Origin: Terriglobia bacterium
GTDB taxonomy: Bacteria; Acidobacteriota; Terriglobia; Terriglobales; Acidobacteriaceae
Length of the DNA stretch: 41,128 nt
NCBI GenBank assembly: GCA_020073185.1
Contig: JAIQFT010000033.1
Location: forward strand, 1 to 41,128
Reading direction: 5' to 3'
Part shown: positions 5,192 through 37,416 of the stretch, piece by piece
Layout of the letters: every line of letters starts with the position of its first letter
Position numbering within the stretch: position 1 is the stretch's first letter
Position numbers and translations under genes: made by a program
Notes under the pieces: generated by a model
What the model saw: only the letters and a program-made list of their open reading frames with translations
Told to the model about the DNA's origin: nothing
The model's database searches: none

Positions 5192-5937
5192 GCACTCCTC
5201 AAAGCTCCCACACTTCCCTCTCGCCGCGCGCCGAGGAGTTTATTGCGTCGGTGCTGAATCTCGGCCCACGCCTCGCCGTTTTCGATTGTGACGGCACGCT
5301 GTGGAGTGGCGACGCCGGTGAACGGTTTTTTTATTGGGAGATGGAGCGCGGCCTGCTGCCGGAGGACGTTGCCCGTTGGGCGAAGGCACGGTATGACGAC
5401 TATCGCGCCGGTCGCGTCAGCGAAGAACAGATGTGCGGCGAGATGGTCACGATTCACGCCGGGCTGGCTTGCGCCATGCTGGAGCGCGCCGCCGCCGAAT
5501 TTTTCGCCGCGCGCATCGTGCCGCGCATTTTCCCGGAGATGGCGGAATTGACGCGGCGCCTGGCCGATGCGGGCTGCGAGTTGTGGGCCATCTCGTCCAC
5601 CAACGACTGGGTGGTTCGCGCCGGCGCTGCGCGCTTTTGCATTCCCGCGGCGCGCGTGATCGCCGCCTGCGTAGAGAATGAGAACGGCCGCTGCACCGAC
5701 CGCTTGATTCGCGTTCCCACCGACGAACTGAAAGCCGCCGCCATCCACGAATTGCTGCCGCGCTTGCCGGACGCCGTCCTTGGAAACTCTGTGCACGATC
5801 TCGCGATGATGGAGCTGACGAAACACGCTTTCGCCATCAATCCCAATCCTGATCTGGAAAAAATTGCGCGGCAGCGCCGGTGGACGGTGTATCGGCCGGA
5901 AGACATTAAAACATTAAGAAGTCAAAATGAAGAATGA
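5188..5937 (+). CDS. HAD superfamily phosphatase (phosphoserine-phosphatase-like, HAD-IB)
   Basis: A 249-residue HAD hydrolase. Motif I is AVFDCDGTLW with nucleophile Asp33 and acid/base Asp35. Motif II is WAISSTNDW. A Lys in the ELKAAAIHEL helix region fits motif III. Motif IV is LGNSVHDLAMM, with Asn in place of the usual first Asp. The helical cap between motifs I and II matches the PSPase-like C1 group. Translational coupling to the nucleotidyltransferase suggests a shared pathway, for example metabolism of a nucleotidyl- or phospho-intermediate. The last nine codons (...TLRSQNEE) lie inside the inverted repeat at 5913-5984, so the C-terminus seems to have been captured from that element. 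Confidence 0.8.
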   Translation: MSTPQSSHTSLSPRAEEFIASVLNLGPRLAVFDCDGTLWSGDAGERFFYWEMERGLLPEDVARWAKARYDDYRAGRVSEEQMCGEMVTIHAGLACAMLERAAAEFFAARIVPRIFPEMAELTRRLADAGCELWAISSTNDWVVRAGAARFCIPAARVIAACVENENGRCTDRLIRVPTDELKAAAIHELLPRLPDAVLGNSVHDLAMMELTKHAFAINPNPDLEKIARQRRWTVYRPEDIKTLRSQNEE

Positions 5938-5984
5938 AAAGCCGAGCGCGTTGACATTCTCATTCTGACTTCTTCATTCTTAAT
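5913..5984. repeat. Inverted repeat of reiterated words between convergent genes
   Basis: The left arm starts at 5913 (attaagaagtc...) and the right arm is 5953-5984 (...cttcattcttaat). Each arm reiterates variants of the word GAATGA/GAAGTC. Read on opposite strands the arms are close copies with small indels. The stops of both convergent genes lie within it, so it may act as a bidirectional terminator. It belongs to the word-repeat set discussed in the findings. Confidence 0.65.
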
Positions 5985-6361: not shown

Positions 6362-6450
6362 AGCCCGTAGTCGGTAGTCTGGAAACATGGGATCGAGAGG
6401 GTCGTCACCTCCGGAACACGGGCCACGGACTACCGACTACGAACTGCGGG
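6362..6450. repeat. Inverted repeat of gtagtcggtag words between divergent genes
   Basis: The left arm, about 6362-6382, contains cccgtagtcggtagtc. The right arm, about 6423-6450, contains gactaccgactacgaactgc, its approximate complement. A further degenerate copy (gctggtaggttagtcgg) lies at 6343-6360. Because it sits between divergent genes it is not simply a terminator. The same word recurs in the hairpin at 23001-23046. Confidence 0.6.
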
Positions 6451-6470: not shown

Positions 6471-7640
6471 GTGGGGTTCGACTACTTCCATTACGCCAAG
6501 ACGGCATTTCGTCCTGCCGGGCTGGAGTCGGTGTTTCTGTTCGTCACCTCGACCTGCAATTCGCTCTGCCGTACCTGTTTTTACTGGGACGAACTTAACC
6601 AGGGCCGCGATCTCACGTTGCAGCAGATCGAAAACCTCAGCCGCACCGCGCCCAAGTTTCACAAGCTCTGGATCTCCGGCGGCGAGCCCTTCATGCGCAA
6701 GGAGCTGGCCGAGATCATCGAGCTCTTCTATGTCAACAACGGCGTGCGGCACATCAACCTGCCGACCAACGGCCTGCTCCCGGCCAAAATCGAATCGGTC
6801 ATCTCAGCGCTGTTGCAGCGTTGCCCGGAGCTGGTCATCGACCTGAACTTTTCACTCGACGGGCTGGCCAACACCCACGACGCCATCCGCGGCGTGCCCA
6901 ACAATTTTCAGAAGACGCTGGCGACCATGGACATGGCGGCTCGCAAGTGGCATGGTGTGCGGCGGCTGCGGCGCAACGTGGTCACCTGCGTCACGGCGGA
7001 AAACTATCGCGAACTGGTCGAACTCGGCCAAAAGATGATGCGCGAGACCGACTCCGACGGTCACTACTTCGAGATCATCCGCGGCGATCCGATGGACGCT
7101 TCGCTGAAGCGCCTGCCGCGCCAGGAACTGGTCGCGCTGCACCGGCGGCTGATGTTCTTTCACCAGCGCTACGCCGAGCAACTGTTTTCTCACCTGCCGG
7201 CGTTGCCGCGTGCGCTGGCTCGGGCCTACTATCTGGGAAACATAAAGTTTCACTTCGATATTCATGAGCAAAACCATTACAGCGACAAGGCTTGGCCGAT
7301 GGCCTGCACTGCCGGTCAGAGCACCATCGTGATCGATCACGACGGCCACTTCCGCGCCTGCGAACAGCGCCCCAAGCTCGGCCGGGTGCAGGATTTCGAT
7401 TGCAACCTCTCCGCCGCGCTGGCTTCGTCGCTGATGCGCGCAGAGGTGAAGGCGATCCCGGAAGCGAAGTGCTGGTGCACTCATTCCTGCTGGATTCACA
7501 GCTCGTCCAAATTCAGTCCCAAGGTGCTGCTCTTCCACATTCCGTGGGCATACCTGAAATCGCGCTGGCAGAAATTGCCGGAGACCGACATCGCGGACCT
7601 GGAGCGGTTCGTGGTGAACGATGCACCCACTCCTGGGTAG
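6471..7640 (+). CDS. Radical SAM protein with C-terminal SPASM-like cysteine region
   Basis: Radical S-adenosylmethionine enzyme, about 389 residues. The cluster motif is CNSLCRTC (CxxxCxxC), preceded by the strand FLFVTST. WISGGEPFMRKEL is the GGEP SAM-binding strand, and NLPTNG and DLNFSLDG are further barrel strands. The C-terminal part has ACTAGQSTIVIDHDGHFRAC and then CWCTHSC, resembling the auxiliary-cluster (SPASM/twitch) domains of peptide- and cofactor-modifying enzymes. The reaction cannot be assigned. An ATG at 6387 is in frame, but the 28 residues it adds are translated from the inverted repeat. The GTG at 6471 begins right where the conserved fold starts (VGFDYFHYAK). Neither start has a Shine-Dalgarno. 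Confidence 0.85.
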   Translation: MGFDYFHYAKTAFRPAGLESVFLFVTSTCNSLCRTCFYWDELNQGRDLTLQQIENLSRTAPKFHKLWISGGEPFMRKELAEIIELFYVNNGVRHINLPTNGLLPAKIESVISALLQRCPELVIDLNFSLDGLANTHDAIRGVPNNFQKTLATMDMAARKWHGVRRLRRNVVTCVTAENYRELVELGQKMMRETDSDGHYFEIIRGDPMDASLKRLPRQELVALHRRLMFFHQRYAEQLFSHLPALPRALARAYYLGNIKFHFDIHEQNHYSDKAWPMACTAGQSTIVIDHDGHFRACEQRPKLGRVQDFDCNLSAALASSLMRAEVKAIPEAKCWCTHSCWIHSSSKFSPKVLLFHIPWAYLKSRWQKLPETDIADLERFVVNDAPTPG

Positions 7641-7691
7641 TTCGTAGCTGGCAGCTCGTAGCTGAGCCACCATCTGCCAGCTACGAGCTAC
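7637..7691. repeat. Hairpin of reiterated gtagctgg words
   Basis: The 18-base arms 7637-7654 (gtagttcgtagctggcag) and 7674-7691 match with one mismatch across a 19-base loop that itself repeats ctcgtagctg. The radical SAM stop codon lies in the left arm. The next gene starts at 7709, so the element fills the junction. Confidence 0.7.
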
Positions 7692-16720: not shown

Positions 16721-16817
16721 TACTTAGGTACCCTACGTGCCTCTGTGAGCATTCGCGGCAGCAACCGGTGCTCAGCATGCAAGGTACTCAGGTACTGAAG
16801 TACTTAGGTGCTCGTAC
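16721..16817. repeat. Degenerate ggtact/acttaggt word repeats
   Basis: ACTTAGGT occurs near 16722 and again near 16802. Between them is a run of ggtact and gtactt words (about 16783-16813), partly self-complementary (GGTACT against AGTACT). It occupies the spacer before the Cof-type HAD gene and is another member of the word-repeat class, less regular than the others. Confidence 0.5.
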
Positions 16818-18536: not shown

Positions 18537-18618
18537 CCTTGCTTCAAAACATAGGGCGCTGCATTGACCCTCCGTGACGGGGTCGTTTAAGTTGAGGTAT
18601 GTGCCCCCCGCCTTGCCG

Positions 18619-19953
18619 ATGAATACGAAGCGAGTCCTCACTAGCGCCGTCGTCATTGTCGTGCTTGCAGTACTGGTGTATTTCCAAATCCAGCACTGGC
18701 GAACTTTCGACTGGGCTCGCTTCCGCGCCGAGACGAGCGGCATCGGCAAGCTCCACATCTTTTTCGCCATCGCACTGATCTACTCCACCTACTACCTGCG
18801 GGCGGTGCGCTGGAGAGTTTTTCTCAAGCCGATCTGTAACGCGCCTGTTTCCCGGCTCATTGCGCCCACTTTCATCGGCTTTACCGGGCTGGCATTACTG
18901 GGCCGGCCGGGTGAGTTCGTCCGGCCTTACCTGATCTCCAAGAAGGAGAACGTGTCGCTGTCCTCGCAGATCGGCGTCTGGACGGTGGAGCGCATTTTCG
19001 ACGTCGGCGCCTTTGCCGTCCTGATGGCGATCAATGTTTTTGTGCCCAGCAGCATTCAGTCCAACCCGTATATTCCAAGATTCCGCGAAGCCGCATTGCT
19101 GCTGCTTTCGCTGGTGGCCGCGGTGTCGGGATTGTGCTACCTGATCCGCACCCAAGGGCCGCGCGTCGCCGCCTTCCTCCACCGCACCGTGAGCCCCTTT
19201 TCGCGGAAGCTGGCCGAGCATCTGGAGGAGAAAACGCGCGCCTTCGGCATCGGCCTGAACACCATCCAGGATCGCCTCTCGTTTCTCCAGCTCACCGCGC
19301 TGTCGTTGGCGATCTGGTTCATCATCGCGCTCGCCTACCGCGAGGTGGCGCACGCCTACCCGCCGGAACCCGGTTGGCGCCAGGCCAAGATTACCGGTCA
19401 AAAACCGGAGCCGCGTTCGGTGGACGCGGAGACCGCGAAGATGGCGGACAATCCCCTCTTCGCCGGCCAGCCGCTGGACGACACGACGCTCGCGGATCTA
19501 CGCAGCGCGCTTGAACCCAAGGGCTTTCGCATCGAACGCCACGACCGTCCCCACGACCACGGCCTGTGGCTGTACAAGGGCAATCACTTGGTCAAGCGCA
19601 TTGGCGACCGGCCTCATCTGGCCGACCTCGATGTCGGTCACACCTTGCTGCTGATGGGCTTCAGCATGGTCGGCTCGGTCGTGCAGTTACCCGCCGTGGG
19701 CGGCGGCAGTCAGCTTGCCGTGATCAGCGCCCTGCAGGTCATTTACGGCATCCCGCCCGAACTCGCCGTCAGTTGCGGCATCCTGCTCTGGCTGGTGACC
19801 TTCATGGCCGTCATTCCCGTCGGACTTGTCTTGGCCCATCGCGAGCACCTTTCGCTGCGCAAGATTTCCCATGAAGCGCACGATCAGAAAGCGCTCGAAC
19901 ATCGGGCTCCAGGCTTCGGGCTTCAGGCTCCCGGCGAGACCCGCAAACTCTAG
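18619..19953 (+). CDS. LPG-synthase-type (UPF0104) multi-pass membrane protein with a central insertion
   Basis: A 444-residue inner-membrane protein of the lysylphosphatidylglycerol synthase TM family, flippase-like proteins that lack the aminoacyl-transferase domain. Family signature: GRPGEFVRPYLISKKENVS, then QIGVWTVERIFDVGAF and near the end AVGGGSQLAVISALQVIYGI. A soluble, charged segment of about 90 residues (about 245-335, rich in Pro, Asp and His) interrupts the membrane domain. The ATG at 18619 is used; in-frame GTG codons at 18574 and 18601 are alternatives, none with a good ribosome site. The last residues (GFGLQAPGE) are encoded by the outer arm of the repeat at 19904-20159. Confidence 0.8.
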   Translation: MNTKRVLTSAVVIVVLAVLVYFQIQHWRTFDWARFRAETSGIGKLHIFFAIALIYSTYYLRAVRWRVFLKPICNAPVSRLIAPTFIGFTGLALLGRPGEFVRPYLISKKENVSLSSQIGVWTVERIFDVGAFAVLMAINVFVPSSIQSNPYIPRFREAALLLLSLVAAVSGLCYLIRTQGPRVAAFLHRTVSPFSRKLAEHLEEKTRAFGIGLNTIQDRLSFLQLTALSLAIWFIIALAYREVAHAYPPEPGWRQAKITGQKPEPRSVDAETAKMADNPLFAGQPLDDTTLADLRSALEPKGFRIERHDRPHDHGLWLYKGNHLVKRIGDRPHLADLDVGHTLLLMGFSMVGSVVQLPAVGGGSQLAVISALQVIYGIPPELAVSCGILLWLVTFMAVIPVGLVLAHREHLSLRKISHEAHDQKALEHRAPGFGLQAPGETRKL

Positions 19954-20159
19954 GTGCGGTCCATTTCTGTTTCACCACCGAGACACAGAGAACACCGAAC
20001 ACACCGAACACATCTCTTGAACTCTTTTCTCGGTGAGTCTCGGTGAACTCGGTGACTCGGTGGTGGCACTCATTTTCAGCGCATCCCACCTGAAGCCTGC
20101 AGCCTCAAGCCTAGGCTTTGCTCTCCGGCCTGAAGCCTGCAGCCCGAAGCCTGAAGCCT
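19904..20159. repeat. Nested inverted repeats built from two different words
   Basis: Outer arms: 19904-19932 (caggcttcgggcttcagg) and 20128-20159 (cctgaagcctgcagcccg), each a run of the word GCCTGAAG or its complement. Inner arms: 19973-20010 (caccaccgagacacagag...) and 20028-20066 (...ctcggtgactcggtggtg), runs of CACCGAGA. The outer left arm is still inside the upstream coding sequence; the rest fills the spacer before nrdR. Confidence 0.7.
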
Positions 20160-20203
20160 ACTTGTGTACAATCTATTGTTACCCGAAACATGGAAGCCCC
20201 AAG

Positions 20204-20707
20204 ATGAAGTGTCCGTTCTGCGGTTTTGAAAACGACCGGGTGGTCGACTCGCGGGAGAGCAAGGAGGGCGAATCCATCCGCCGCCGCCGCGAGTGCCTGA
20301 AGTGCGAGAAGCGCTTCACCACCTACGAGCGCATCGACGAAATTCCCTACATGGTGGTCAAGAAGGACGGCCGGCGCGAAAAATTCGATCGCCAGAAAGT
20401 TCTCAACGGGCTGCTGCGCGCTTGCGAAAAGCGGCCCATTCCCATCGGCAAGCTGGAACAGATCGTCAACGAAGCCGAAGACTTCGTTATCAACTCCCCG
20501 GAACGCGAGCGCAAGACCAGCGAGATCGGCGAACTGATCATGAATCGCCTGCGCCGCCACGACAAAGTCGCCTACGTGCGCTTCGCCTCGGTTTACCTGG
20601 ATTTCAAGGACGTGCAGGAGTTCATGCTGGAGTTGAAGGAGCTGCTGAAAGCAAAAGATATGGTGGAACCGGTGAAGGCGAAAACTACAGGAGCGAAAAC
20701 GCAGTAG
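20204..20707 (+). CDS. nrdR: Transcriptional repressor NrdR
   Basis: A 167-residue zinc-ribbon/ATP-cone regulator that represses ribonucleotide reductase genes according to the ATP/dATP balance. The zinc ribbon is CPFCGFEND plus CLKCEKRF (Cys3, Cys6, Cys31, Cys34), followed by the diagnostic DSRESKEGESIRRRRECLKC and FTTYER. The ATP cone spans about residues 49-139 (VVKKDGRREKFDRQKVLNGL ... VAYVRFASVYLDF). The tail is Lys-rich. The ATG at 20204 gives the invariant MKCPFCG start; GGAAG is about eight bases upstream, and an extended -10-like TGTACAAT lies at 20165-20172. Confidence 0.96.
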   Translation: MKCPFCGFENDRVVDSRESKEGESIRRRRECLKCEKRFTTYERIDEIPYMVVKKDGRREKFDRQKVLNGLLRACEKRPIPIGKLEQIVNEAEDFVINSPERERKTSEIGELIMNRLRRHDKVAYVRFASVYLDFKDVQEFMLELKELLKAKDMVEPVKAKTTGAKTQ

Positions 20708-20813
20708 AAAGACTCGTGCCGGCAGTCCCAATTTCTGGCGTAACTTACGCTAAGGGCTGTTCACAACAATAATTCCGGATCGGCTCGGGACCTGGCGCTG
20801 CTTAGCGCCGCAG

Positions 20814-20849
20814 GAAGCTGAGGGGGAAGGCGGATCACTTCAGCTTCCC
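20814..20849. repeat. Hairpin downstream of nrdR
   Basis: The 9-bp perfect arms ggaagctga (20814-20822) and tcagcttcc (20841-20849) enclose an 18-base loop. A second small hairpin (ggcgct-gctt-agcgcc) lies just before, at 20795-20810. There is no T-tract, so it is not a classical terminator. The rest of 20708-20985 holds nothing else I recognise. Confidence 0.5.
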
Positions 20850-20985
20850 AACCCGGGAACGAGCGCAAAATATTTCATGCAACTCCTCATCTATCTCCGT
20901 TAGTAAGCCGATAATTCACCTAGTTGACCAGAGCGGACGCGAGCCGAGCCGAAATCTTGGTTCTCCTTTGCGTCAGGAGGTGGCC

Positions 20986-21328
20986 ATGAGGAAACTTTGG
21001 CCCATTCTAATCGTCATGGCTTTTGTCGCGCTCAGCGCCATTGCTGCCGAGCAGCTGCAGTGCATGGAAGCGAACGACAAAAGGCGAGATCGTCCTTGAC
21101 CGCCAGGCCACGGTGGGAGATGTCACGCTGCGTCCCGGCGTGTATTTAGTCCACTCGGAAGTCGTCGATGGCAAACATTACGTTCACTTCGTCGAGGAAT
21201 CCAAAAAGTATGAGGTGCACGCTGCGGAGTGGTTCGAACAGGCTCCGCTGACCGGTATTGGGGAAGCAAAATGTGGTACGGAGCAACTGACGAAGAAGGC
21301 TTTCTGGGACCGCAATCTATTTCGTTGA
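20986..21328 (+). pseudogene. Small secreted protein gene with a frameshift
   Basis: The first frame starts at ATG 20986 behind a strong AGGAGG and encodes a perfect signal peptide (MRKLWPILIVMAFVALSAIA). It runs into a stop at 21097-21099. The plus-one frame from about 21080 to the TGA at 21326-21328 continues a sensible protein (KGEIVLDRQATVGDVTLRPG...VYLVHSEVVDGKHYVHFVEE). The change falls at the run GACAAAAGGC. Two missing bases, or a plus-one slip, would restore a protein of about 113 residues. It is a broken gene, a sequencing error or programmed frameshifting. The family is a small secreted beta-rich protein of unknown role. Confidence 0.65.
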
Positions 21329-21458
21329 AGAACCCACGGGAGTGCGTATCAAGAGAATAGAAATTAGGGGCGAAGACCAGGCCCATATTTTTTGAACGAG
21401 GAGCGTCGGTTTGTCTAGCCTCAAATCGGGAAATCCCCCGCCTTCAAAGCCTCATTTT

Positions 21459-21474
21459 TGTGTTGCATGTCACA
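21459..21474. promoter_or_regulatory. CRP/FNR-type half-palindrome pair
   Basis: TGTGT-TGCATG-TCACA matches the CRP consensus TGTGA-N6-TCACA at nine of ten positions. No gene starts close downstream, so the regulated target is unclear. Chance occurrence cannot be excluded. Confidence 0.35.
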
Positions 21475-21590
21475 GACATTTCTCCTCCGACCCGCTATGC
21501 TGAGAATGCGATTTGTCGGCGGAGAGGTGTTGTGTTTTCATAGGGCCTGTTTATGTTTGCGATAATAAACGCGCTTCGCCGGGACGCCAA

Positions 21591-21620
21591 CGGTTACCGT
21601 GCGACTTTCAAGGTATACCG
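21591..21620. promoter_or_regulatory. Paired palindromes ACGGTTACCGT / GGTATACC, copy 1
   Basis: CGGTTACCG is centred at 21595 and GGTATACC at 21615.5, 20.5 bases apart. Reverse-complemented, the roughly 41-base block around them matches the block at 39041-39080 at about three quarters of positions. A related GTTACC/GGTAAC hairpin lies 60 bases further on. The isocitrate dehydrogenase gene starts about 300 bases downstream. Confidence 0.5.
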
Positions 21621-21914
21621 TGGGTAAGTTGTTGATTCTCCGATATGGGATGGGGGGAGTGGGGTCTGCTGCCGTTACCAAACGGTAACAGCGGACACCG
21701 TCAACCAGAGGTGCTGGAAGATTCCAAAATCGGCTTAGCCGCATATCCTACGGTGGAAGCTCTGGCCTTTAGGGTGAGCGGGCTTCTGCCGGATACGGGC
21801 TTCAGCCCTGGTTTACAGCAACCATGGGCTTGCTCTAACGTAGGCTGGCATGGCATGCGCGCGCGGTAAGAAACCTCCGTGACGAGGCTGCTCTACGACG
21901 CGAAAGACTGATCA

Positions 21915-22973
21915 ATGGCCACGTCCATGACCCACACTGTCACCCTCATTCCCGGCGACGGCATCGGCCCCGAAATCACCGACGCCGTGGTGCGCATCCT
22001 CGAGGCCACCGGGGTGAGGTTCCAATGGGAGCGCCAGGCAGCCGGCGCCGATGCCTACGAGAAATACCAGGAATATCTGCCCCAGGCGCTGATCGACTCC
22101 TTCGAGCGCACTAAGGTCGCGCTCAAAGGCCCCATCACCACGCCCATCGGCGGTGGGTTCTCCAGCATCAACGTCGCCTTGCGCAAGCGCTTTGAGCTGT
22201 ACGCGAACTTCCGCCCCATCCGCAATCTTCCGCACATCCCCACGCGCTATCCCGACGTAGACCTGATCATCATCCGCGAGAACACCGAGGGCCTGTATTC
22301 CGGCATCGAGCACGAAGTCGTGCCCGGCGTGGTCGAGAGCCTGAAGATCATCACCGAGAAGGCGTGCACGCGTATCTCCCGCTTCGCCTTCGAGTACGCC
22401 CGCAAGAACCAGCGCAAGCGCATCCACTGCATCCACAAGGCCAACATCATGAAGCTCTCCGACGGCCTGTTCCTGCGCTGCGCGCGCAACATTTCTCACG
22501 AATATCCGGAGATCACCTACGGCGAGCACATCGTCGACAACACCTGCATGCAACTGGTCACCAATCCGTATCAGTACGACATCTTGTTGCTGGAAAACCT
22601 GTACGGCGACATCATCAGCGACCTCTGCGCCGCCTTCGTCGGCGGCCTGGGCGTCGTTCCCGGCGCCAATTTCGGCGAGGGCTGCGCCATTTTTGAAGCG
22701 GTGCATGGCTCCGCTCCCGACATTGCCGGCCGCGGCATCGCCAATCCCACCGCCCTGCTGCGCTCCGGGATTCTCATGCTTCGCCACCTCGGCGAATCCG
22801 AGGCGGCGTGGCGAATCCGCAATGCGATCGAGAAAGTCTATCGCGACAAGACCAAGCGCACCCGCGACGTGGGCGGCAGCGCCACCACTTCCCAGTTCGC
22901 CGATGCCATCATCGAGGCCATGGAAGCCCAGCCGAAATCGGCGGAGGCGGAACCGGTGATTCGCCAAGCGTGA
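21915..22973 (+). CDS. NAD-type isocitrate dehydrogenase (isocitrate/isopropylmalate dehydrogenase family)
   Basis: A 352-residue beta-decarboxylating dehydrogenase. Motifs in order: [15 protein letters not shown]; the substrate loop with FANFRP-like [24 protein letters not shown], characteristic of NAD-dependent isocitrate dehydrogenase rather than LeuB; the catalytic [14 protein letters not shown]; the metal site [17 protein letters not shown]; and [25 protein letters not shown]. It oxidises isocitrate to 2-oxoglutarate in the TCA cycle. A homoisocitrate or 3-isopropylmalate activity is less likely. Starts at 21915 or 21927 are both possible, neither with a clear ribosome site. Confidence 0.88.
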
Positions 22974-23000
22974 CCATTCTCCTCTTGTGTCGTGTAACTA

Positions 23001-23046
23001 GCGGGTAGTCGGTAGTCCGGGCCGGACTACGGGCTACGGACTACCG
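23001..23046. repeat. Hairpin of gtagtcggtag words
   Basis: The left arm 23001-23018 (cgggtagtcggtagtccg) is followed almost at once by the right arm 23022-23046 (cggactacgggctacggact...), its complement with one extra word copy. The word is the same as in 6362-6450, 16.6 kb away. It lies between the dehydrogenase and hemH. Confidence 0.7.
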
Positions 23047-23198
23047 GGTGCGAATTGCCAACCACCATCCTGCAAAAAACATGCTCTTCCAAAACCCGCA
23101 CCCAGCGCGGCTTTCAGGACACCTGTTTTCCACTCACCGTTTGACGAGCAGCGGACGTTTTGAATATCATCGCTCTGCACTGTGGGGTGTTCTTCCGG

Positions 23199-24227
23199 AT
23201 GGCGCGAACCAGTCGTCGCGTGGGTGTGGTTCTGTTCCAGCTTGGCGGCCCGGATTCCATCGAGGCCATTGAGCCGTTTCTCTACAACCTATTTTGCGAC
23301 CCCGACATCATCGACTTTCCCTTCGCCAGCCTTGGCCGCAAGGCGCTCGCCAAGCTAATCTCGACCACGCGCGCCCGCAAAGTCGCGCACCACTACAAGG
23401 CGATCGGCGGCGCGTCGCCCATTCGTCGCCACACCGAGCGCCAGGCGGGAGCGCTGGAAAGGCGGCTCCGCGCCGAAGGTCTTGACGCCCGCTGTTTTGT
23501 CGCCATGCGATATTGGCATCCCTTCACCGAGGAAGCCGTCGCCGCCCTCGACGCCTCGGCTTGCGACCATGTCGTGCTGCTCCCGCTTTACCCGCAGTAC
23601 TCCAAAACCACCACCGGCAGCAGCCTCAACGAATGGAACCGCAAATTCTCTGCAGCCGGACGCCAGGTCTCCTGCATCCATGACTTCTATCGCAACGGGC
23701 TTTACCTCGATGCCCTTGCCGATCGCGTAGACGAAGCTCTCTCTCGCTTCCCTGACCCCAACGATGTCGTGCTCGTGTTCAGCGCGCACAGCGTTCCGGT
23801 GGCGGTGGTCGAGCAAGGCGATCCCTACCAGCGGCAGATCGAGGAAACGGCCACGCTGCTCATGCGGCGCGGCGGGTGGCTCAATTGCCATCGGCTCTGT
23901 TATCAGAGCAAAGTCGGCGCCAGCAAGTGGCTGCAGCCATCCTTGCGCTCGACCATCCGCGAACTGGGCGCCGCCGGCATCAAGGACGTCTGCGTGGTGC
24001 CCATTTCTTTTGTCTCGGACCACGTCGAGACCCTGGGCGAGATTGATCATGAAGGCCGCGCGTTGGCCACGCAGGCCGGCATCACGCGCTTCGAGATGAC
24101 CGAGGGCCTCAACGTTTCCCTGGAATTCATCGGCGCGCTGGCCCAATTGGTCATCGCCTGCGTCGAGCCGGCAAGAAAGGAGCCCGCGTTCGCCTCCCAG
24201 GCCATGCGGGTGGTGGCCAAGGGGTGA
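23199..24227 (+). CDS. hemH: Ferrochelatase (HemH)
   Basis: A 342-residue enzyme inserting Fe2+ into protoporphyrin IX (or coproporphyrin III) to make haem. Seen: VGVVLFQLGGPDSIEAIEPF at the N-terminus, LPLYPQYSKTTTGSSLNE, the active-site histidine in VFSAHSVPVAVVEQGDPY, the YQSKVGASKWLQPS segment and PISFVSDHVETLGEIDHE, holding the second catalytic acid. The ATG at 23199 gives the natural start; a TTG at 23160 would add 13 residues without homology. It opens the respiratory cluster, six bases before the Rieske gene, linking haem supply to the cytochromes downstream. Confidence 0.93.
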   Translation: MARTSRRVGVVLFQLGGPDSIEAIEPFLYNLFCDPDIIDFPFASLGRKALAKLISTTRARKVAHHYKAIGGASPIRRHTERQAGALERRLRAEGLDARCFVAMRYWHPFTEEAVAALDASACDHVVLLPLYPQYSKTTTGSSLNEWNRKFSAAGRQVSCIHDFYRNGLYLDALADRVDEALSRFPDPNDVVLVFSAHSVPVAVVEQGDPYQRQIEETATLLMRRGGWLNCHRLCYQSKVGASKWLQPSLRSTIRELGAAGIKDVCVVPISFVSDHVETLGEIDHEGRALATQAGITRFEMTEGLNVSLEFIGALAQLVIACVEPARKEPAFASQAMRVVAKG

Positions 24228-24233
24228 AGAAGA

Positions 24234-25349
24234 ATGGTTGATGAGGGATCCAAGGCTGTGGCCGGCGGCGAGTTGGGCCGGCTTCCGGCCTGGCCGCGCA
24301 AACCGCTCAATAACTCCGTGATCGCGGCCGAACAGGCGTACCGCAAGCGTGCCGGCCTGCAGTTGATCAGCGACGAGGACATTGAAGCTCTTAAGGCGGG
24401 TCAGCCCATGTCGTGGGAAGGCGGTGAAGTCGCCGCACCAGCCGCCCCGACACCGTCCGTCCCAGCCGCCGCCGCACCCGCTCCACCGCCGGCTCCCGCT
24501 GCAGCTTCCGCCACTCCCAGCCCCGCCGCCGCTGAAATGATGAAGAGCGGCTTCAAGTGGAGCAAGTCCTCCCTCGCCGCCGAGCAGGCGCGCCGCAAAC
24601 GCAACAATCTTCCGCCGCTCACCGATGCCGACCTTGCCCTGCTGCTGGGCGAAGTTCCGCCCCCGGCTGCGCTCCCTGCCGCTGCTGCTGCGGCGCCCGC
24701 GTCCGCCAGGCCCGCGGCTGCCCCTGCCGCAAGGCCCGCTGCGGCCATGTCCGCCGTATCTCAGGTGGCGCGCACCGGTTCCGCGGTGAAGTACGTCGGC
24801 ACGCCTGCGGTTGGCACGTCGAAAGCCGCCGCCGCCGGTGGCGTCAGCAGCGCCGGAAGAATCGGCACCGAGATTGACGCCAAGCGCCGACGTCTGGTCT
24901 GGACCGGAGTGGTCGCATTTCTCGCAACATGGTTGTTGGCGTTCTTCCGCTTTTTCCTGCCACGCACGCTGTTTGAGCCGAGCACGGTTTTCAAAATCGG
25001 ATATCCATCCGACTTCGGTCTCGGCGTGGACACCAAGCTCCAGCAGCGATACCGCATCTGGGTGGACCGCATTCCCGGACGCCTGTTTGTGATTTACGCC
25101 AAGTGCACGCACCTGGGCTGCACACCCGACTGGAAGCCCAGCGAAAACAAATTCAAGTGCCCCTGCCACGGCAGCGGCTACGACAGCGAGGGAATCAACT
25201 TCGAAGGTCCGGCGCCGCGCCCTATGGACCGCGCCCACGTCGAGGTCGCTCCCGACGGCCAGGTCCTGGTGGACGTCGGGCGCCTGTATCAATGGCCCAA
25301 GGGCCAAGCTAGTCATTTTGACGATCCGGGAGCGTTCCTCTCGGTGTAG
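24234..25349 (+). CDS. Rieske iron-sulfur protein with long duplicated N-terminal extension
   Basis: A 371-residue membrane-anchored Rieske subunit of a quinol oxidising bc-type complex. The 2Fe-2S domain is C-terminal: AKCTHLGCTPDW (Cys291, His293, Cys296) and FKCPCHGSGYD (Cys309, Cys311, His312), so four ligands plus the disulfide pair are intact. One transmembrane helix (about 221-241, preceded by KRRR) anchors it. The 210-residue N-terminal region is unusual: two copies of a motif AAEQAxRKRxxLxxLxDxD (about 28-56 and 112-140) separated by Ala/Pro-rich linkers. By the positive-inside rule it should be cytoplasmic. It is six bases after hemH, in one operon. Confidence 0.93.
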   Translation: MVDEGSKAVAGGELGRLPAWPRKPLNNSVIAAEQAYRKRAGLQLISDEDIEALKAGQPMSWEGGEVAAPAAPTPSVPAAAAPAPPPAPAAASATPSPAAAEMMKSGFKWSKSSLAAEQARRKRNNLPPLTDADLALLLGEVPPPAALPAAAAAAPASARPAAAPAARPAAAMSAVSQVARTGSAVKYVGTPAVGTSKAAAAGGVSSAGRIGTEIDAKRRRLVWTGVVAFLATWLLAFFRFFLPRTLFEPSTVFKIGYPSDFGLGVDTKLQQRYRIWVDRIPGRLFVIYAKCTHLGCTPDWKPSENKFKCPCHGSGYDSEGINFEGPAPRPMDRAHVEVAPDGQVLVDVGRLYQWPKGQASHFDDPGAFLSV

Positions 25350-25436
25350 GAACTAGGTTTACGGTTTTCGGTTGCGTCTTTCGCGGCTACGCGCGGCATG
25401 ACCGACGACCGATCACCGATAACTCCAGAGGGTCTT

Positions 25437-26417
25437 ATGGCCGATGATCACGTAAAAGGTAACGGGGCTTCCGGCAATGGCGCTTCCGGTGACGGAGCCT
25501 CCGGCGCGCCCAAGAACGGGAAGAAAGGCATTGGCATCATCGTGAAGGAAGAGGTCGAAGCCTTCCGCACCGAGATGCCCGGCAAGGTCAAGGAGCAGAT
25601 CGAAAGCGTCAAGGACCCCACCAAGACGCAGGTCTACACCTCGATTTTTCGCCACAAGCACGACGAGACCCCGCGCAACCGCGCTCTCGGCGTGCTCTCT
25701 AACGTCTTCCTGCACCTGCACCCGGCCAAGATCAATCGCGACTCCGTGCGCTACCCCTACACCTGGGGCATGGGCGGAATCACCTTTTACCTGTTCATCG
25801 TCCTCACCTTCACCGGCGTGCTGCTGATGTTCTATTACCACCCGACCAAGGTGCAGGCCTTCCGCGACGTGCTGTACCTGGAGCACGACGTTCCCTTCGG
25901 CAAGATCCTGCGCAACATGCATCGCTGGGCGGCTCACCTAATGGTCATCGCCGTCGAGCTCCACATGTTCCGCGTCTTTCTCACCGGCTCCTACAAAAAG
26001 CCGCGCGAGTTCAACTGGAACGTCGGCGTGATCCTGCTCGTGCTCACGCTGCTGCTCTCCTTCACCGGCTACCTGCTGCCCGACGATCAGCTCGGATTCT
26101 GGGCCGTCACCGTGGGCACCAACATGGCGCGCGCCACGCCGCTGCTCGGAAACGAAGGACCTTTCGGCTCGCAACTCGGTATGACGCCCTACAACGACGT
26201 GCGTTTCGGCTTGTTAGGCGGCTCCATTGTGGACGCCAATGCCCTGCTGCGCGCCTACATCTGGCATTGCATCGCGATTCCGATCATCGCTTCGGTTTTC
26301 ATGATCGTGCACTTCTGGCGCGTGCGGAAGGATGGTGGCATCTCCGGTCCCGCTCCGGTCATGCTCGCCTCCGAAGCCGACAAGCCGCGCCGGGCGCAGT
26401 TGGCGGCAGGAGCTTAG
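25437..26417 (+). CDS. Cytochrome b, N-terminal half (b6 type)
   Basis: A 326-residue membrane subunit binding two b haems at the heart of the quinol:acceptor oxidoreductase. Haem ligands: His162 and His176 (NMHRWAAHLMVIAVELHMFR), His277 and His292 (WHCIAIPIIASVFMIVHFW). Spacings of 14 and 15 match cytochrome b6 rather than mitochondrial b (14 and 14). About four membrane helices are present. The N-terminus carries a tandem GNGASG-type repeat and a charged amphipathic helix. The ATG at 25437 has GAGGG four bases upstream; an earlier ATG at 25398 lies in the intergenic repeat-like sequence. Confidence 0.92.
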   Translation: MADDHVKGNGASGNGASGDGASGAPKNGKKGIGIIVKEEVEAFRTEMPGKVKEQIESVKDPTKTQVYTSIFRHKHDETPRNRALGVLSNVFLHLHPAKINRDSVRYPYTWGMGGITFYLFIVLTFTGVLLMFYYHPTKVQAFRDVLYLEHDVPFGKILRNMHRWAAHLMVIAVELHMFRVFLTGSYKKPREFNWNVGVILLVLTLLLSFTGYLLPDDQLGFWAVTVGTNMARATPLLGNEGPFGSQLGMTPYNDVRFGLLGGSIVDANALLRAYIWHCIAIPIIASVFMIVHFWRVRKDGGISGPAPVMLASEADKPRRAQLAAGA

Positions 26418-26424
26418 ACAAATT

Positions 26425-26496
26425 GTTTCAGTTTCAGTTTCTGTCTCAGCAAAGTGGAAAAGTCAGAAGCTGACAAACTGAAGCCGAAACTGAAAC
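26425..26496. repeat. Hairpin of tttcag words between the two cytochrome b genes
   Basis: The left arm 26425-26450 (gtttcagtttcagtttctg...) and the right arm 26469-26496 (...ccgaaactgaaac) are near-complementary, each reiterating GTTTCA. It starts right after the cytochrome b stop and ends 12 bases before the next start, inside the operon. Confidence 0.7.
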
Positions 26497-26508
26497 TTTG
26501 GAATTCTT

Positions 26509-27438
26509 ATGAACTGGCATCAGCTCTGGACCATCGCGACCACGCCTGACAACATCCCCATCACGGCCCTGCTGCCCCTGGTGCTGTTCTATTGTTGGCT
26601 GGCCTTCCGTCAGGCCAAAGGCAACGACCAACTCATCGCGCAACTGGAAGCCGATCCCGAGCTCGCGAAGACGCACCATCGCAAGACCTGGCCCTTCCGC
26701 CCCGGATGGCAGAAGGAAGTCCACGTCTGGCCTTTCCTGCTGCGTATGGAATTTCTGGCGGCGATCATCGTCACCGCCATCCTCATGGTCTGGTCCATCA
26801 CCATGAGCGCGCCGCTGGAGGAGCCGGCGAATCCCAACCTGACCATGAATCCTGCCAAAGCTCCGTGGTACTTCCTCGGCCTGCAGGAGATGCTGGTGTA
26901 CTTCGACCCGTGGATTGCCGGCGTGGTCATGCCCACGCTCATCATCGTCGGCCTGATGGTGATTCCCTACATTGATACGAATCCGCTGGGCAGCGGCTAC
27001 TACACCCTGAAGCAACGGAAGTTCTCCATTGCCACTTTCTGCTTCGGTTTTCTAGTCCTTTGGGTCTCAATGATCCTCATCGGCACCTTCATTCGCGGTC
27101 CCGGCTGGCAGTGGTTTTGGCCCGGCCAGACCTGGGACCACAACCGATTAATTTACGAGGTGAACCGCGACTTGCCTGACCTGTTCGGCATCACCTCGAA
27201 TCTGGGCAAGGGAATTTTTGGCGCCATCGTCGTGGGCGGTTATTTCGCGGTCGGCGGCTTTGTCATGACCGCCCTGTTCCGCCGAAAAATGCCCAAGGAC
27301 TGGCGCCGCATGAGCCTGCTGCAGTACCAGATCATGATGTTTCTCATGCTCACCATGGTCGCGCTGCCCATCAAGATGCTGCTGCGCCTGAGCTTGCACA
27401 TCAAGTACGTGTGGATAACGCCCTGGTTCAACGTGTGA
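26509..27438 (+). CDS. Cytochrome b C-terminal half (subunit IV-like)
   Basis: A 309-residue membrane protein equivalent to subunit IV of b6f complexes, here enlarged. The Qo-site segment normally read as PEWY is APWYFLGLQEMLVYFDPW (Ala118-Pro119-Trp120-Tyr121), so the Glu is missing. Further helices: WIAGVVMPTLIIVGLMVIPY, FSIATFCFGFLVLWVSMILI, a segment with FGAIVVGGYFAVGGFVM, and a C-terminal helix. It is a separate gene rather than a frameshifted half, because the junction contains a repeat and a new start. It forms the quinone-binding part with cytochrome b. Confidence 0.88.
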   Translation: MNWHQLWTIATTPDNIPITALLPLVLFYCWLAFRQAKGNDQLIAQLEADPELAKTHHRKTWPFRPGWQKEVHVWPFLLRMEFLAAIIVTAILMVWSITMSAPLEEPANPNLTMNPAKAPWYFLGLQEMLVYFDPWIAGVVMPTLIIVGLMVIPYIDTNPLGSGYYTLKQRKFSIATFCFGFLVLWVSMILIGTFIRGPGWQWFWPGQTWDHNRLIYEVNRDLPDLFGITSNLGKGIFGAIVVGGYFAVGGFVMTALFRRKMPKDWRRMSLLQYQIMMFLMLTMVALPIKMLLRLSLHIKYVWITPWFNV

Positions 27439-27440
27439 CG

Positions 27441-27513
27441 GTCGGTTGGTCGCTGGTCGCTGGTCGTTGGCGCTAACGCTGACGACACTCGCTAACGACC
27501 AACGGCCACGACG
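27441..27513. repeat. Hairpin of gtcgctg/gttggtcg words
   Basis: The left arm, about 27441-27475, repeats GGTCGCTGGTCGCTGGTCG. The right arm 27491-27513 (gctaacgaccaacggccac...) complements its end. It sits between subunit IV and the cytochrome c gene. The downstream ribosome site GGAGG (27519-27523) is just outside, so folding could influence translation. Confidence 0.65.
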
Positions 27514-27529
27514 CTTTTGGAGGAACGCG

Positions 27530-30500
27530 GTGTCCGAGCAATCCATTCCCGAGTCAGACCCGATCACCACCAAATCGTATGCCCTGCACTACACCGTCGC
27601 CATCGTGGTGCTGATCGGAACCCTGTTGTGGGCCATGTGGGACGAGGACTACGGCCAGCGCCCATGGAAGCGCTACCAGCGCGTCTTCCAGGAGCGCTAC
27701 ATCTCGTTCCTCAAGCAGGCGCGCTCGCAGTCCGCCGACGCCGAGAAAGACCTGCAGAACAACCCCGACTTCCGTGCCCTCAACGACGCCTACCAGTCTG
27801 CCTACAAATCCGCCGAGCCGAAAATCCAGGACATCAACAAGCAGCTCGCCGAGAAATCCGCCGATATCCTCGCCGTCCAAAGCGTCTTCACCGACAAGCG
27901 CGCTTACGTCAATGCCCTCACCTACGAGATCGAAACCGACGACAGCCCTAGCTCTAAGGCGTCCAAGCAAAAGGACCTCGACAAGTACAAGGCACAGCAA
28001 TTCGAGGTTCGCTATCCCGACGGCAGCAGCAAGAAATATAACTTTCAGCAACTTGAAGAAACGTATAACCAGCTCAAGGACGAAAAAGGCCGGCTCGGCG
28101 GTCAACTCGGCGACCTGCTCAAGCCCATCAACGAAGCCAAGCTCGCCCGCGACACCTGGATCAAGGAGCACTTGGTGTCGCTCCCGCCCGAAGCGCTCCG
28201 CGGGCTGCAGAACAAGATCGCCAATTGGGACCCGGAAATTGTTCAGATCAACGTCGCGGAAGCCAACATCGTGGACCGCTGCGAGTCCTGCCACATGGGC
28301 ACGCGTGAACCCGTTCGCCTCACCGCCGCGCTGATGACTCCCAAGGGCCGCAAGTCTCCTGACGATTACGCCCTCGCCTTTACCAGCCATCCCGAAACTG
28401 ACTTGCTCACTATCCACGATCCCGACAAGTTCGGCTGCTCGCCCTGTCATCAGGGCAACGGTCGCGCCACCACCAGCGTGGAAAAGGCGCACGGCCGCTA
28501 CGAGCACTGGTTGTGGCCGCTGTTCCGCAAGGCCAACATGGAAGCTGGTTGCCAAACCTGCCATCAGGGGGACATGTTCATCCAGGCCGGTTCGGTCGGC
28601 CAGGTGATCAGCGAGGGCAAGTTCCTCTTCCGCCAGCGCGGGTGCAACGGATGCCATCGCTACGAGGGCTACGATCGCGAGCCCGAAGAACTCACCAACA
28701 TCGGCCAGCAGATCAAGCAAATGGAGCAGCAGCAGCGAGACAACCTGCACCAGGCCTCCATCGCCATGCAGCAGGCTGATCAGGCTGAAACAAACCAGGA
28801 AGCCATTCAACTCAACCAGCGCGCCGAGGCGCTGCGCGTCGAGAACAGCAAAATCGCAGGCCGCATCGAGCAACTCGATCTCCGCTCCAATTCCCTGCTG
28901 CGCGACGAGAAGAAGATCGGCCCCGACCTCAAGGAAGTCCGCGAAAAACTAAATCGCAACTGGATCCCCGTTTGGCTGCACAAGCCCACCGACTTCCGCC
29001 TCAACACCAAGATGCCGAACTTCCGCCTCAACGACAATCAGATCAGGGCGATCGCGGCATACCTCTGGCAGACCGCGCTTACCGATCCTCTGCCCAGGGC
29101 CCAGCCCGGCAACGCTGCCCGCGGCAAGGAGCTTTTTGAAACCCGCGGCTGCCTAGCCTGCCACTCCATCGGCGAGGGCAGCGACCAGATCGGCGGCGAC
29201 TTCGCTGCCAACCTCTCGCGCCTGGGCGAAAAAGCGAATTACGATTACATCGTCCGCTGGATCAAGAACCCGCGCGTCCGCACGCGACCCTACTGCGCCT
29301 ACGAAAAAAAGGACATCGGCCCCGAGGACTACGGCAAGCACGGCCTGCCCTACGTCTTCGATTTCGACCATAGCAAGTGTCCCAACGACGGCCACGAGCT
29401 CCAAGTCGAGCAGATGACCGTCATGCCCAGCCTGCGCCTTGCCGATGACGAGGTCGCCGACATCGCCACCTACCTGCTCGCGCAGAAAAAGCAGGAGCCC
29501 TCTTCCTATCCCGAGGCGCCCTACATGGATGATCCCAGGCTCAAGGCCGAGGGCAAGAAGTGGATCCAGCAATTCGGTTGTGCTGGTTGCCACGAAATCG
29601 CCGGACTTGAAGAGGAAGGTCGCATCGGCACCGAGCTCACCACGGAAGGCAGCAAGCCCATCGAGCGCCTCGATTTCGCGCTGCTCACCAAGGTCGCCGA
29701 GGACAGTGGCAAGGAGCCGATCCAGGATCCCGCCCTCCGCGCGCGCCTACCCGAAGGTCCGGCCCACGCCCCCTGGTACAACCACAAGGGCTTCTTCGAG
29801 CACAAGCTCGCCATGCCCAACGTCTACGACCAGGGCATGATCAAGAGCGACACTGAAAAACTTCGTATGCCGGATCCGCACCTCACCAAGGAACAGATCC
29901 GCGCTCTCGCCACGTTCCTTCTTGGCAGCCAGGAGACTTCCCTTCCCGCGAGCTATCAGTACCGTCCCGAGGATGCCCGTCGCGACATCCAGGAAGGCTG
30001 GTGGATCGTGCGCAAGTACAACTGCGTCGGCTGCCACCAGTTCACCCCCGGCCAGAAGACCGCCATCGAAACCGTGCCTCGCTATCAGGACGCCAAGGAG
30101 CAATTGCCGCCCAAGCTGCTCACCGAAGGCGCGCGCGTGGATCCCGAATGGCTGCTCCGCTTTCTGGCCAATCCCTCAATGGCCCCGAACCCGAACGATC
30201 AGCACCGCAACGGCGTACGTCCTTATCTCGCCGTGCGCATGCCGACGTTTTTCTTTTCCGAAAACGAGCTGCGCAAGCTGGTACGCTTCTTCCAGGCGCT
30301 CTCCCAGCAGCCGATGCCTTACATCCCGCAGAAGCAGCAGCTCCTGACCGCCGCCGAAACCGACATGGCGCGCGCCCTGTTTACCAGCCAAGCCGCGCCC
30401 TGCCTCAAGTGCCACGCCACCGGCGATCCCGCCCATGACAAAACCGCCACCGCGCCCAACTTCCTGCTCGCCAAGGAGCGCCTCAAGCCCGGGTGGACCG

Positions 30501-36557: not shown

Positions 36558-37416
36558 TTTGCCAACGACGAACGAGCAACGGCCAACGACCATGGCTTCG
36601 CAAACCCAAACCATGGCAGCAACCGTCGCACCGACATCGGTCGGGTCGGTGATTCCAGCGCTCAGCCTCTGGTGGCGCGAGATCGTGCGCTTCTACCGCC
36701 AGCGCTCGCGCGTGGTGGGAGTAATCGCCTCGCCGGTGGTGTTCTGGATCGTCATTGGCTCAGGCTTCGGAACTTCCTTCCGCGGCGGCAGCGGCGCGGG
36801 CAACGAGCACTATCTCGACTACTTCTTTCCCGGCGCGCTGATCATGATCGTGCTCTTCACCTCGATCTTTACCATGATGTCGGTGATCGAGGACCGCAAG
36901 GAGGGCTTCCTGCTTTCGGTGCTGGTCGCTCCGGTGCATCGTTCAGTGATCGTGCTGGGCAAAGTTCTGGGCGGAACCACGCTGGCGACCATTCAGGGAC
37001 TGGTGTTTCTCTGCTTCGCGCCCGCGCTGCGCATTCACATCGGCCTGGCGCAGCTTGGTCTCATCGCGCTGACCGTCTTTCTGGTTTCGTTCTGCTTGAC
37101 CGCGTTGGGCTTCGTCATTGCCTGGCCGATGGACTCGACGCAGGGCTTTCACGCCGTCATCAACCTGTTCCTGATTCCGCTATGGCTGCTCTCGGGCTCG
37201 CTGTTTCCGCTGACCGGAGCGTCGGGCTGGATTCGCCTGCTGATGCGCATCAATCCGCTGACCTACGGCACCGAAGCGCTGCGGACGCTGCTGTTCCCTG
37301 CCAGCGCAACCTTTGCCGTCAGCACTTCGCTGATTGTCCTGGTCGGCTTTTCCCTGGCGATGTTCTTGGCGGCGTTCGTAGTTGCCAATCGCCGCACCAC
37401 CAAACCTGCCGCATAG
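36538..37416 (+). CDS. ABC-2 type transporter permease
   Basis: A 292-residue permease with about six transmembrane helices and the ABC-2 motif region (NEHYLDYFFPGALIMIVLFT, then EDRKEGFLLSVLVAPVHRS, the coupling helix, and later NLFLIPLWLLSGSLFPL). GTG at 36538 has GAGGG five bases upstream and overlaps the ATPase gene. An ATG at 36592 would drop 18 residues encoded by a run of 'caacgac' words. The stop codon abuts the stop of the convergent HEAT protein gene with no base between. Substrate unknown. Confidence 0.9.
   Translation: MPLTASDLPTTNEQRPTTMASQTQTMAATVAPTSVGSVIPALSLWWREIVRFYRQRSRVVGVIASPVVFWIVIGSGFGTSFRGGSGAGNEHYLDYFFPGALIMIVLFTSIFTMMSVIEDRKEGFLLSVLVAPVHRSVIVLGKVLGGTTLATIQGLVFLCFAPALRIHIGLAQLGLIALTVFLVSFCLTALGFVIAWPMDSTQGFHAVINLFLIPLWLLSGSLFPLTGASGWIRLLMRINPLTYGTEALRTLLFPASATFAVSTSLIVLVGFSLAMFLAAFVVANRRTTKPAA

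Follow-up and report, generated by a model that had tools for sequence, protein, structure and literature searches.

Hairpins whose arms are built from a reiterated seven-nucleotide word lie between the genes of this bacterium and of related Acidobacteriota, and they are handed: a word nearly always keeps the 5′ arm. By computation, they combine a 7-nt period, a mostly intergenic location, inverted pairing, a limited shared list of words, exchange of words at orthologous junctions, handedness and one hot junction. Intergenic 7-bp hairpins themselves are already known; what is new here is handedness across many words as a constraint. We tentatively regard these structures as heptanucleotide-repeat hairpins, the Acidobacteriota form of the cyanobacterial short tandemly repeated repetitive sequences (STRRs) and the Xanthomonas 7-bp repeats, with an origin in slippage and fold-back, a reading that we hold with slightly less than even confidence.

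The window, meaning the whole stretch of 41,128 nucleotides analysed, is C33:1-41128 of the source genome G000 (4.66 Mb over 121 contigs). A sequence-only reading had proposed ten inverted repeats in it, each made of a short word reiterated in both arms. When the fold energy of each interval was compared with 200 dinucleotide shuffles, seven of the ten proved strong (z −3.5 to −7.2; Table 1). Two of the others, 16721-16817 (z −1.1) and 25350-25436, were non-significant as inverted repeats, and 36552-36590 (z +1.4) turned out to be a direct CCAACGA array. Those words that had been given as 8-mers are mostly 7-mers: lag 7 exceeded all other lags from 5 to 10 in six of the seven strong cases. The interval 26425-26496 has a period of 6, and 5913-5984 is a near tie (0.46 at lag 7, 0.44 at lag 6). 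The proposed constancy of architecture with a changing word holds. The left arm of the outer hairpin upstream of nrdR (19905-19927) lies within the gene that stops at 19953, at its 3′ end. An Rfam search of the window at gathering score returned 0 matches. No terminator-like site (a G+C-rich stem followed by a T run) was found at the hairpins within the scanned 19800-27600, in agreement with the suggestion that termination alone does not explain them.

Table 1. Coordinates of word hairpins, arrays and neighbouring elements (window positions unless a locus is named; z, fold energy against dinucleotide shuffles).
Feature	Span	Arms	Context	Interval first claimed and z	Remarks
Word hairpin, GAAGTCA/AATGAAG-type	5916..5974	5916-5930 and 5960-5974	Reaches into two convergent predicted genes at their 3′ ends	5913-5984, z −4.1	
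Word hairpin GTAGTCG	6366..6441	6366-6379 and 6428-6441	Divergent junction	6362-6450, z −3.5	Arms 14/14 complementary
Word hairpin GTAGCTG/GTAGCTC	7637..7691	7637-7654 and 7674-7691	At the stop codon of a radical SAM gene ending at 7640	z −6.7	
Outer word hairpin GGCTTCA / GCCTGAA	19905..20159	19905-19927 and 20089-20111	Upstream of nrdR	19904-20159 as a whole, z −7.2	Extra right array 20128-20159
Inner hairpin CACCACCGAGACACAGAG ... CTCGGTGGTG	19973..20065				Member of a dispersed inverted-repeat family
Word hairpin GTAGTCG	23004..23045		After the isocitrate/isopropylmalate dehydrogenase gene	23001-23046, z −4.2	
Weak GGTTTTC-type words	25350..25436			z −1.8	Non-significant here; hairpins at this junction in G001 (GGTCTTTCG) and G002 (GGTTTTC)
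Word hairpin GTTTCA	26425..26496		Between two cytochrome b genes	z −3.9	Period 6
Word hairpin GGTCGCT/GGTCGTT	27447..27508		Follows the cytochrome b C-terminal gene, ahead of the next gene	27441-27513, z −4.8	Hot-spot junction
Direct period-7 array CCAACGA	36562..36592				No inverted partner; G001 has similar words in an array at this junction
REP-like CCCACATCTGCC copies	L023:5283-5313; L027:14251-14281; L028:13435-13464; L035:18995-19025; L050:18250-18280; L185:1131-1161				

The genome sample comprised the window and 60 other stretches (61 in all; 1,234,254 bases, about 1.234 Mb), divided into coding and intergenic sequence by a simple custom gene caller, with about 19% of the sampled bases intergenic. 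This sample contained 99 period-7 arrays (86 of them intergenic), where a first-order Markov control had 0, along with 23 period-6 and 19 period-8 arrays, against 2 of each in the control. Six of the 61 stretches had been placed on known matches of one word; without them, 68 intergenic period-7 arrays were left in 1.121 Mb. Hairpins numbered 107 (82 intergenic) against 22 in a single Markov-1 sequence. The proposed class is thus genome-wide, its counts of both arrays and hairpins exceeding the Markov background rather than matching it. Identity within the arms of the 82 intergenic hairpins was 0.53 at lag 7, 0.55 at lag 14 and 0.59 at lag 21, against 0.17-0.33 at other lags from 3 to 15; the value at lag 7 in the 25 coding hairpins was 0.36. 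An inverted partner lay within 150 nt of 24 of the 86 intergenic arrays and 3 of the 13 coding arrays, and of 0/86 when the flanks of the intergenic arrays were shuffled once. These elements are therefore tandem 7-bp units, mainly intergenic and capable of forming hairpins, as are the STRR-like heptameric intergenic repeats.

Comparison material consisted of a panel of 41 genomes (G-numbers, including the window's own genome) and 80 retained Acidobacteriota loci retrieved with the window's NrdR protein at up to 92% identity. Most of these loci are labelled as MAGs of Terriglobales, Terriglobia, Acidobacteriaceae or similar groups, and the window's bacterium is accordingly most likely a member of Terriglobales. 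Period-7 arrays reached 374 per intergenic Mb in the window's genome, 864 in G002, 687 in G009 and 152 in the relatives' loci. G020, of the same family, had none in the 0.2 Mb sampled and one pattern match in all. Two degenerate patterns run over the 41 genomes agreed in outline: G002, G009, G025 and G021 were rich, and G020, G023, G033 and G037 poor (0 or 1 match). A backward control equalled or outnumbered the patterns themselves in some genomes (for the second pattern, 74 matches against 122 for the control in G000 and 115 against 284 in G001); because this control also matches heptamer arrays, the counts gauge period-7 arrays generally and not the RGY form. Four of the five sets yielded 74 period-7 hairpins, the G020 sample yielding none. 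By the custom gene caller, they lie between co-directional (57), convergent (9) and divergent (7) genes, with one at an edge, so that the reported occurrence in all three kinds of junction stands. Long or dense arrays were also seen at single sites: a one-sided run of about 24 AGTCGGT/AGTCAGT words at G010:C3:40575-40742, and 19 period-7 arrays of many words on L188, an IMG/VR contig of 11.4 kb (GC 48%), whose hairpin words AGCAATT and AGTTGTC are also present in the window's genome.

The words form a shared list. Across 91 array loci (coding included, one per 300 bp) we counted 45 words up to rotation and strand, whereas letter shuffling within words gave a mean of 84 and a minimum of 77 in 500 trials; the notion that each locus has its own vocabulary does not survive this reuse within the genome. 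A single word list for all loci is not what simple local slippage would predict. The 74 hairpins carry 46 distinct left words, most without GGG. Among the pattern matches listed, and within the words that the pattern allows, G006 favoured AGCTCCT-type words, G004 AGCCACT, G018 AGTCGTT and G021 AGCACTC/AGCAGTC.

REP elements share a body, and REP sequences associated with RAYT transposases are, like the hairpins described here, dispersed intergenic palindromes. Unlike REP, the 74 hairpins have no shared body or loops: loops and flanks resembled one another only in a local duplication in G002, at orthologous junctions and in a single weak match that joins the flank of a named-relative locus to a flank in the window's genome (E 3e-5). 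The words do recur as families, as ordinary dispersed repeats would, but because the hairpins share neither loops nor flanks, the word families are not ordinary repeat copies. The description of the class as unlike REP or ERIC holds to this extent, loops of same-word hairpins being unrelated except in the one local duplication.

The inner CACCGAGA element at 19973-20065 is the exception, being one of a family of dispersed inverted repeats whose conserved ends are longer. This CACCACCGAGACACVGAG inverted-repeat family gave 43 exact pattern matches in 6 of the 41 genomes, 41 of them within the window's genus; it is expanded in G002 (31 matches), with 7 in G001, 2 in the window's genome, one each in G003, G006 and G007 and none in the remaining 35. 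A REP-like hairpin of the ordinary kind, CCCACATCTGCC-N7-GGCAGATGTGGG (7-nt loop), recurs across the window's genome, one copy lying within 1.5 kb of a Y1_Tnp gene (a single own-genome Y1_Tnp locus, of 12, was scanned). Another palindrome, of TGTCATCCCGAGC type or near it, occurs in G009 at the junction before the counterpart of window gene 18601-19953 and in L121 at the junction after cytochrome b.

Members of the family share most of their gene order near nrdR and cytochrome b, and congeners often differ in the word at the same junction. After the isocitrate/isopropylmalate dehydrogenase gene, where the window has GTAGTCG, G001 has AGTACTC/AGGAGTC-type words and G002 AGTTTCAG-type words, and none was detected in G003. 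The junction after cytochrome b carries GGTCGCT in the window, AGCTATT in G001, AGCTGTC in G002, GTTTCA-type words in G003, AGTCGTC in G012 and GTCGTTG in G009. Between the two cytochrome b genes, GTTTCA is present in both G000 and G001 and, at wider spacing, in G003, with ATCACCCG words in G002 (the spacing and the G002 word were read by eye). At 41 orthologous junctions compared between the window's genome and G002 with a strict period-7 detector, 30 had an array in neither, 6 only in G002, 4 only here and 1 in both with different words. Two of the 30 (22973-23219 and 26417-26508) do hold word hairpins, seen in the junction comparison or by eye; since the strict detector misses these, the turnover applies to strict period-7 arrays only.

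A hairpin reads identically on both strands, and hence each word has an intrinsic hand, in the 5′ or the 3′ arm. Among 121 deduplicated hairpins, pairs sharing at least three words, with more in one orientation, agreed in hand in 60 of 60 cases; a spanning forest over 59 hairpins reduced these to 44 independent comparisons, with 44 agreements and 0 disagreements. The agreeing pairs include all eight that link Acidobacteriota hairpins to viral-collection contigs. Only one of 28 repeated consensus words was found in both hands (ACTCAGC, 2 and 1). In the 74 hairpins AGT or GGT fell in the left arm 49 times and in the right arm 3 times, AGTC 22 to 0 and TCAG 21 to 1, and left words were keto-rich in 59 and not in the other 15. 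Paired arrays therefore keep the same relative hand, as the convergent Xanthomonas pairs do.

Aligned left words carried 4.36 bits of information, compared with a mean of 3.43 and a maximum of 3.66 for 60 sets of randomly flipped strands, every fit using 15 starts; an earlier alignment with unequal starts had the same outcome. In the RGY-register profile G reaches 0.95, and one position stands at 0.55. Two candidate regularities were tried and rejected: a single hypervariable position per word (column test 0.36 vs 0.36 in this genome, with small excesses elsewhere), and fixed hairpin ends, as arms do start near RGY, possibly from conservation of that core.

The hand was also predicted, in terms set down before scanning, for two further genomes. 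The position weight matrix (PWM) was right in 11 of 13 hairpins (3/3 in G025, 8/10 in G021), the two misses in G021 being the A-rich words AAAATGC and AAAAATG; under the AGT/GGT criterion the 3 hairpins of G025 split 2 left to 0 right, and the 10 of G021 only 6 left to 3 right. In the viral set, retrieved with known and local words, the matrix was right in 25 of 32 hairpins and, after deduplication, in 23 of 29, the remaining 6 scoring opposite by the acidobacterial matrix; AGT/GGT fell left in 16 and right in 2 of the 29. Handedness constrains any mechanism, and it points to a directional process making the hairpins; plain slippage leaves it unexplained.

The mechanism that we tentatively prefer would work as follows. 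Polymerase slippage in 7-nt steps would grow and rewrite the arrays, and fold-back synthesis of the nascent strand would make the opposite arm. Should the two complementary arrays differ in how readily they fold back on themselves, the word of the readier one (usually G+T-rich, each word often containing AGT or GGT) would come to lie 5′; words might then spread among loci, perhaps by recombination between short arrays. Five copies of the left word folded better than five of its complement in 44 vs 25 of the 74 cases under RNA parameters. DNA parameters gave only 23 vs 20 of 74, and fold-back stability is therefore a weak candidate for the cause of the hand. In favour of this mechanism, the two arms differ off-register (identity 0.79) to the same degree as adjacent words of a single arm (0.79); the lack of a mirrored word order, described below, speaks against it.

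A functional explanation would have RNA hairpins under selection between cistrons, as stabilisers, processing sites or means of coupling, with the pairing selected and the word irrelevant. A word hairpin or array followed cytochrome b at 14 of 31 loci, with differing words, whereas the twelve other junctions together had one at 21 of 450 (window excluded); without three contigs present twice (L126/G012, L142/G007, L145/G006) the figures were 13/28 vs 21/425. In loci read by eye the hairpin stands after the stop codon and before the next ribosome-binding site. Because a hairpin or array follows cytochrome b in many species whatever its word, a transcript role independent of the word is plausible at some junctions, above all this one. 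The distribution of arrays over intergenic regions of at least 40 nt also leans in this direction: 59 of the 495 co-directional regions have one, as do 7 of the 88 convergent and 8 of the 133 divergent ones. An insertion hot spot, however, would give the same picture; arm mismatches read in transcript direction comprised 37 G-U and 31 A-C, no clear excess, and a G-U signature of RNA-level selection was accordingly rejected; no partner was detected within 150 nt for 62 of the 86 intergenic arrays. Selection for pairing alone would yield neither handedness nor a common word list, and we consider it unlikely as the explanation of the class.

Mobility offers another source of hand. Miniature REP- or MITE-like elements moved as single-stranded DNA by a Y1 transposase (RAYT or IS200-type) would impose the hand of the element, and would account for words that are reused across loci and exchanged at junctions. 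Y1_Tnp copies, of which G000 has 12 matches, correlate with word-pattern counts over the 41 genomes (Spearman 0.54, p 0.0003, uncorrected for genome size or phylogeny). Yet G025, 98% complete, has 0 Y1_Tnp matches and 294 pattern matches, and G031, G034 and G036 likewise have at least 10 pattern matches without Y1_Tnp, so that this gene family is correlated but not required. Period-7 arrays lay within 1.5 kb at one of ten Y1 loci scanned (L177-L186). As for the defined ends and target-site duplication expected of MITEs, arm ends cluster near RGY, and the congeners are too diverged to define an empty site. The unrelated loops and flanks, taken with an array-rich genome that has no Y1_Tnp, indicate that the hairpins are not REP copies, and Y1 mobility appears rather improbable.

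Three other gene families were tried as the engine and rejected. Reverse transcriptase (RVT_1; Spearman 0.45, p 0.003, uncorrected) is missing from the array-rich G010, G011, G021 and G025; Ku (Spearman 0.09, p 0.57, uncorrected) is missing from the array-rich G010 and G011 and present in the array-poor G020; the Y-family polymerase IMS (Spearman 0.36, p 0.02, uncorrected) is also present in G020. None of the four families, Y1_Tnp included, separates array-rich from array-poor genomes.

A dedicated, widespread activity on single-stranded or nascent DNA, which would recognise an RGY-type core every 7 nt and write handed words, is a bolder proposal that we judge very unlikely. Also very improbable is the idea of the sequence-only reading that template switching at forks created each hairpin separately in its own junction, with a word private to that locus: loops and flanks mostly unrelated between loci and presence that varies between congeners would suit it, but words are common to loci far beyond chance within the genome, they keep one hand even in the viral-collection contigs, and the arms are not mirrored word by word. 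If a whole arm were copied, its drifted words should reappear in mirrored order, but the signal did not exceed what selection of the best register produces by itself (over 39 hairpins the mean rank was 0.263 and the null 0.259), which leaves template switching without support.

The reading as heptanucleotide-repeat hairpins is set here beside known systems. Cyanobacterial STRRs are usually 7-bp intergenic repeats capable of forming hairpins, found at the hupS-hupL junction in several species (PMC2670836). The acidobacterial repeats resemble them in period, intergenic position and hairpin formation, and differ in having many words per genome and exchange at orthologous junctions; handedness was measured here for the acidobacterial hairpins. 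Heptanucleotides are cited in later papers as the most abundant of the longer repeat units in many genomes. The Nostoc trnL P6b stem-loop is likewise built on 7-nt motifs (Class I TDNGATT, Class II NNTGAGT), one of which repeatedly replaced the other (PMC4476775); it concerns one locus in a group I intron and two motifs, whereas the present repeats are genome-wide, intergenic and of dozens of words.

In Xanthomonas, GGGAATC heptamers are mostly intergenic, form 70 and 75 close convergent pairs in two species and vary extensively in length and sequence between them (Rehm et al. 2015; PMC4692102). Such convergent pairs are inverted with a fixed hand, as in the Acidobacteriota hairpins; that report studied one G-rich word as a G-quadruplex, whereas here there are many words, most without GGG. 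Geobacter metallireducens has tandem heptamers, GGACCGG and a fivefold MTYCTGA, described as putative regulatory elements or regulator-binding sites (PMC2700814). They resemble the acidobacterial ones in being tandem and present in many places, and by our own comparison CTTCTGA, which MTYCTGA allows, is complementary to the word AAGTCAG found here. The marine Beggiatoaceae heptamer TAACTGA forms intergenic direct repeats, often just upstream of start codons, with one inverted case (PMC4679880). It is the complement of the AGTTATC word in the viral-collection contigs, which were found by searching with it; the Beggiatoaceae repeats use a single word. Among the matches listed in a search of the open literature, with subscription journals outside its scope, there was no report of heptamer hairpins in Acidobacteriota.

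The heptamer reports consulted concerned single groups and mostly one or two words, with no agreed explanation. The shared period, list and hand, together with word swaps and a hot junction, separate a possible mutational generator from local function, and both become testable. Were a dedicated activity to prove the source, distant bacteria and mobile DNA would share one evolving, directional vocabulary of self-renewing hairpins, and these would constitute a new class of non-coding replicator rather than the product of passive slippage.
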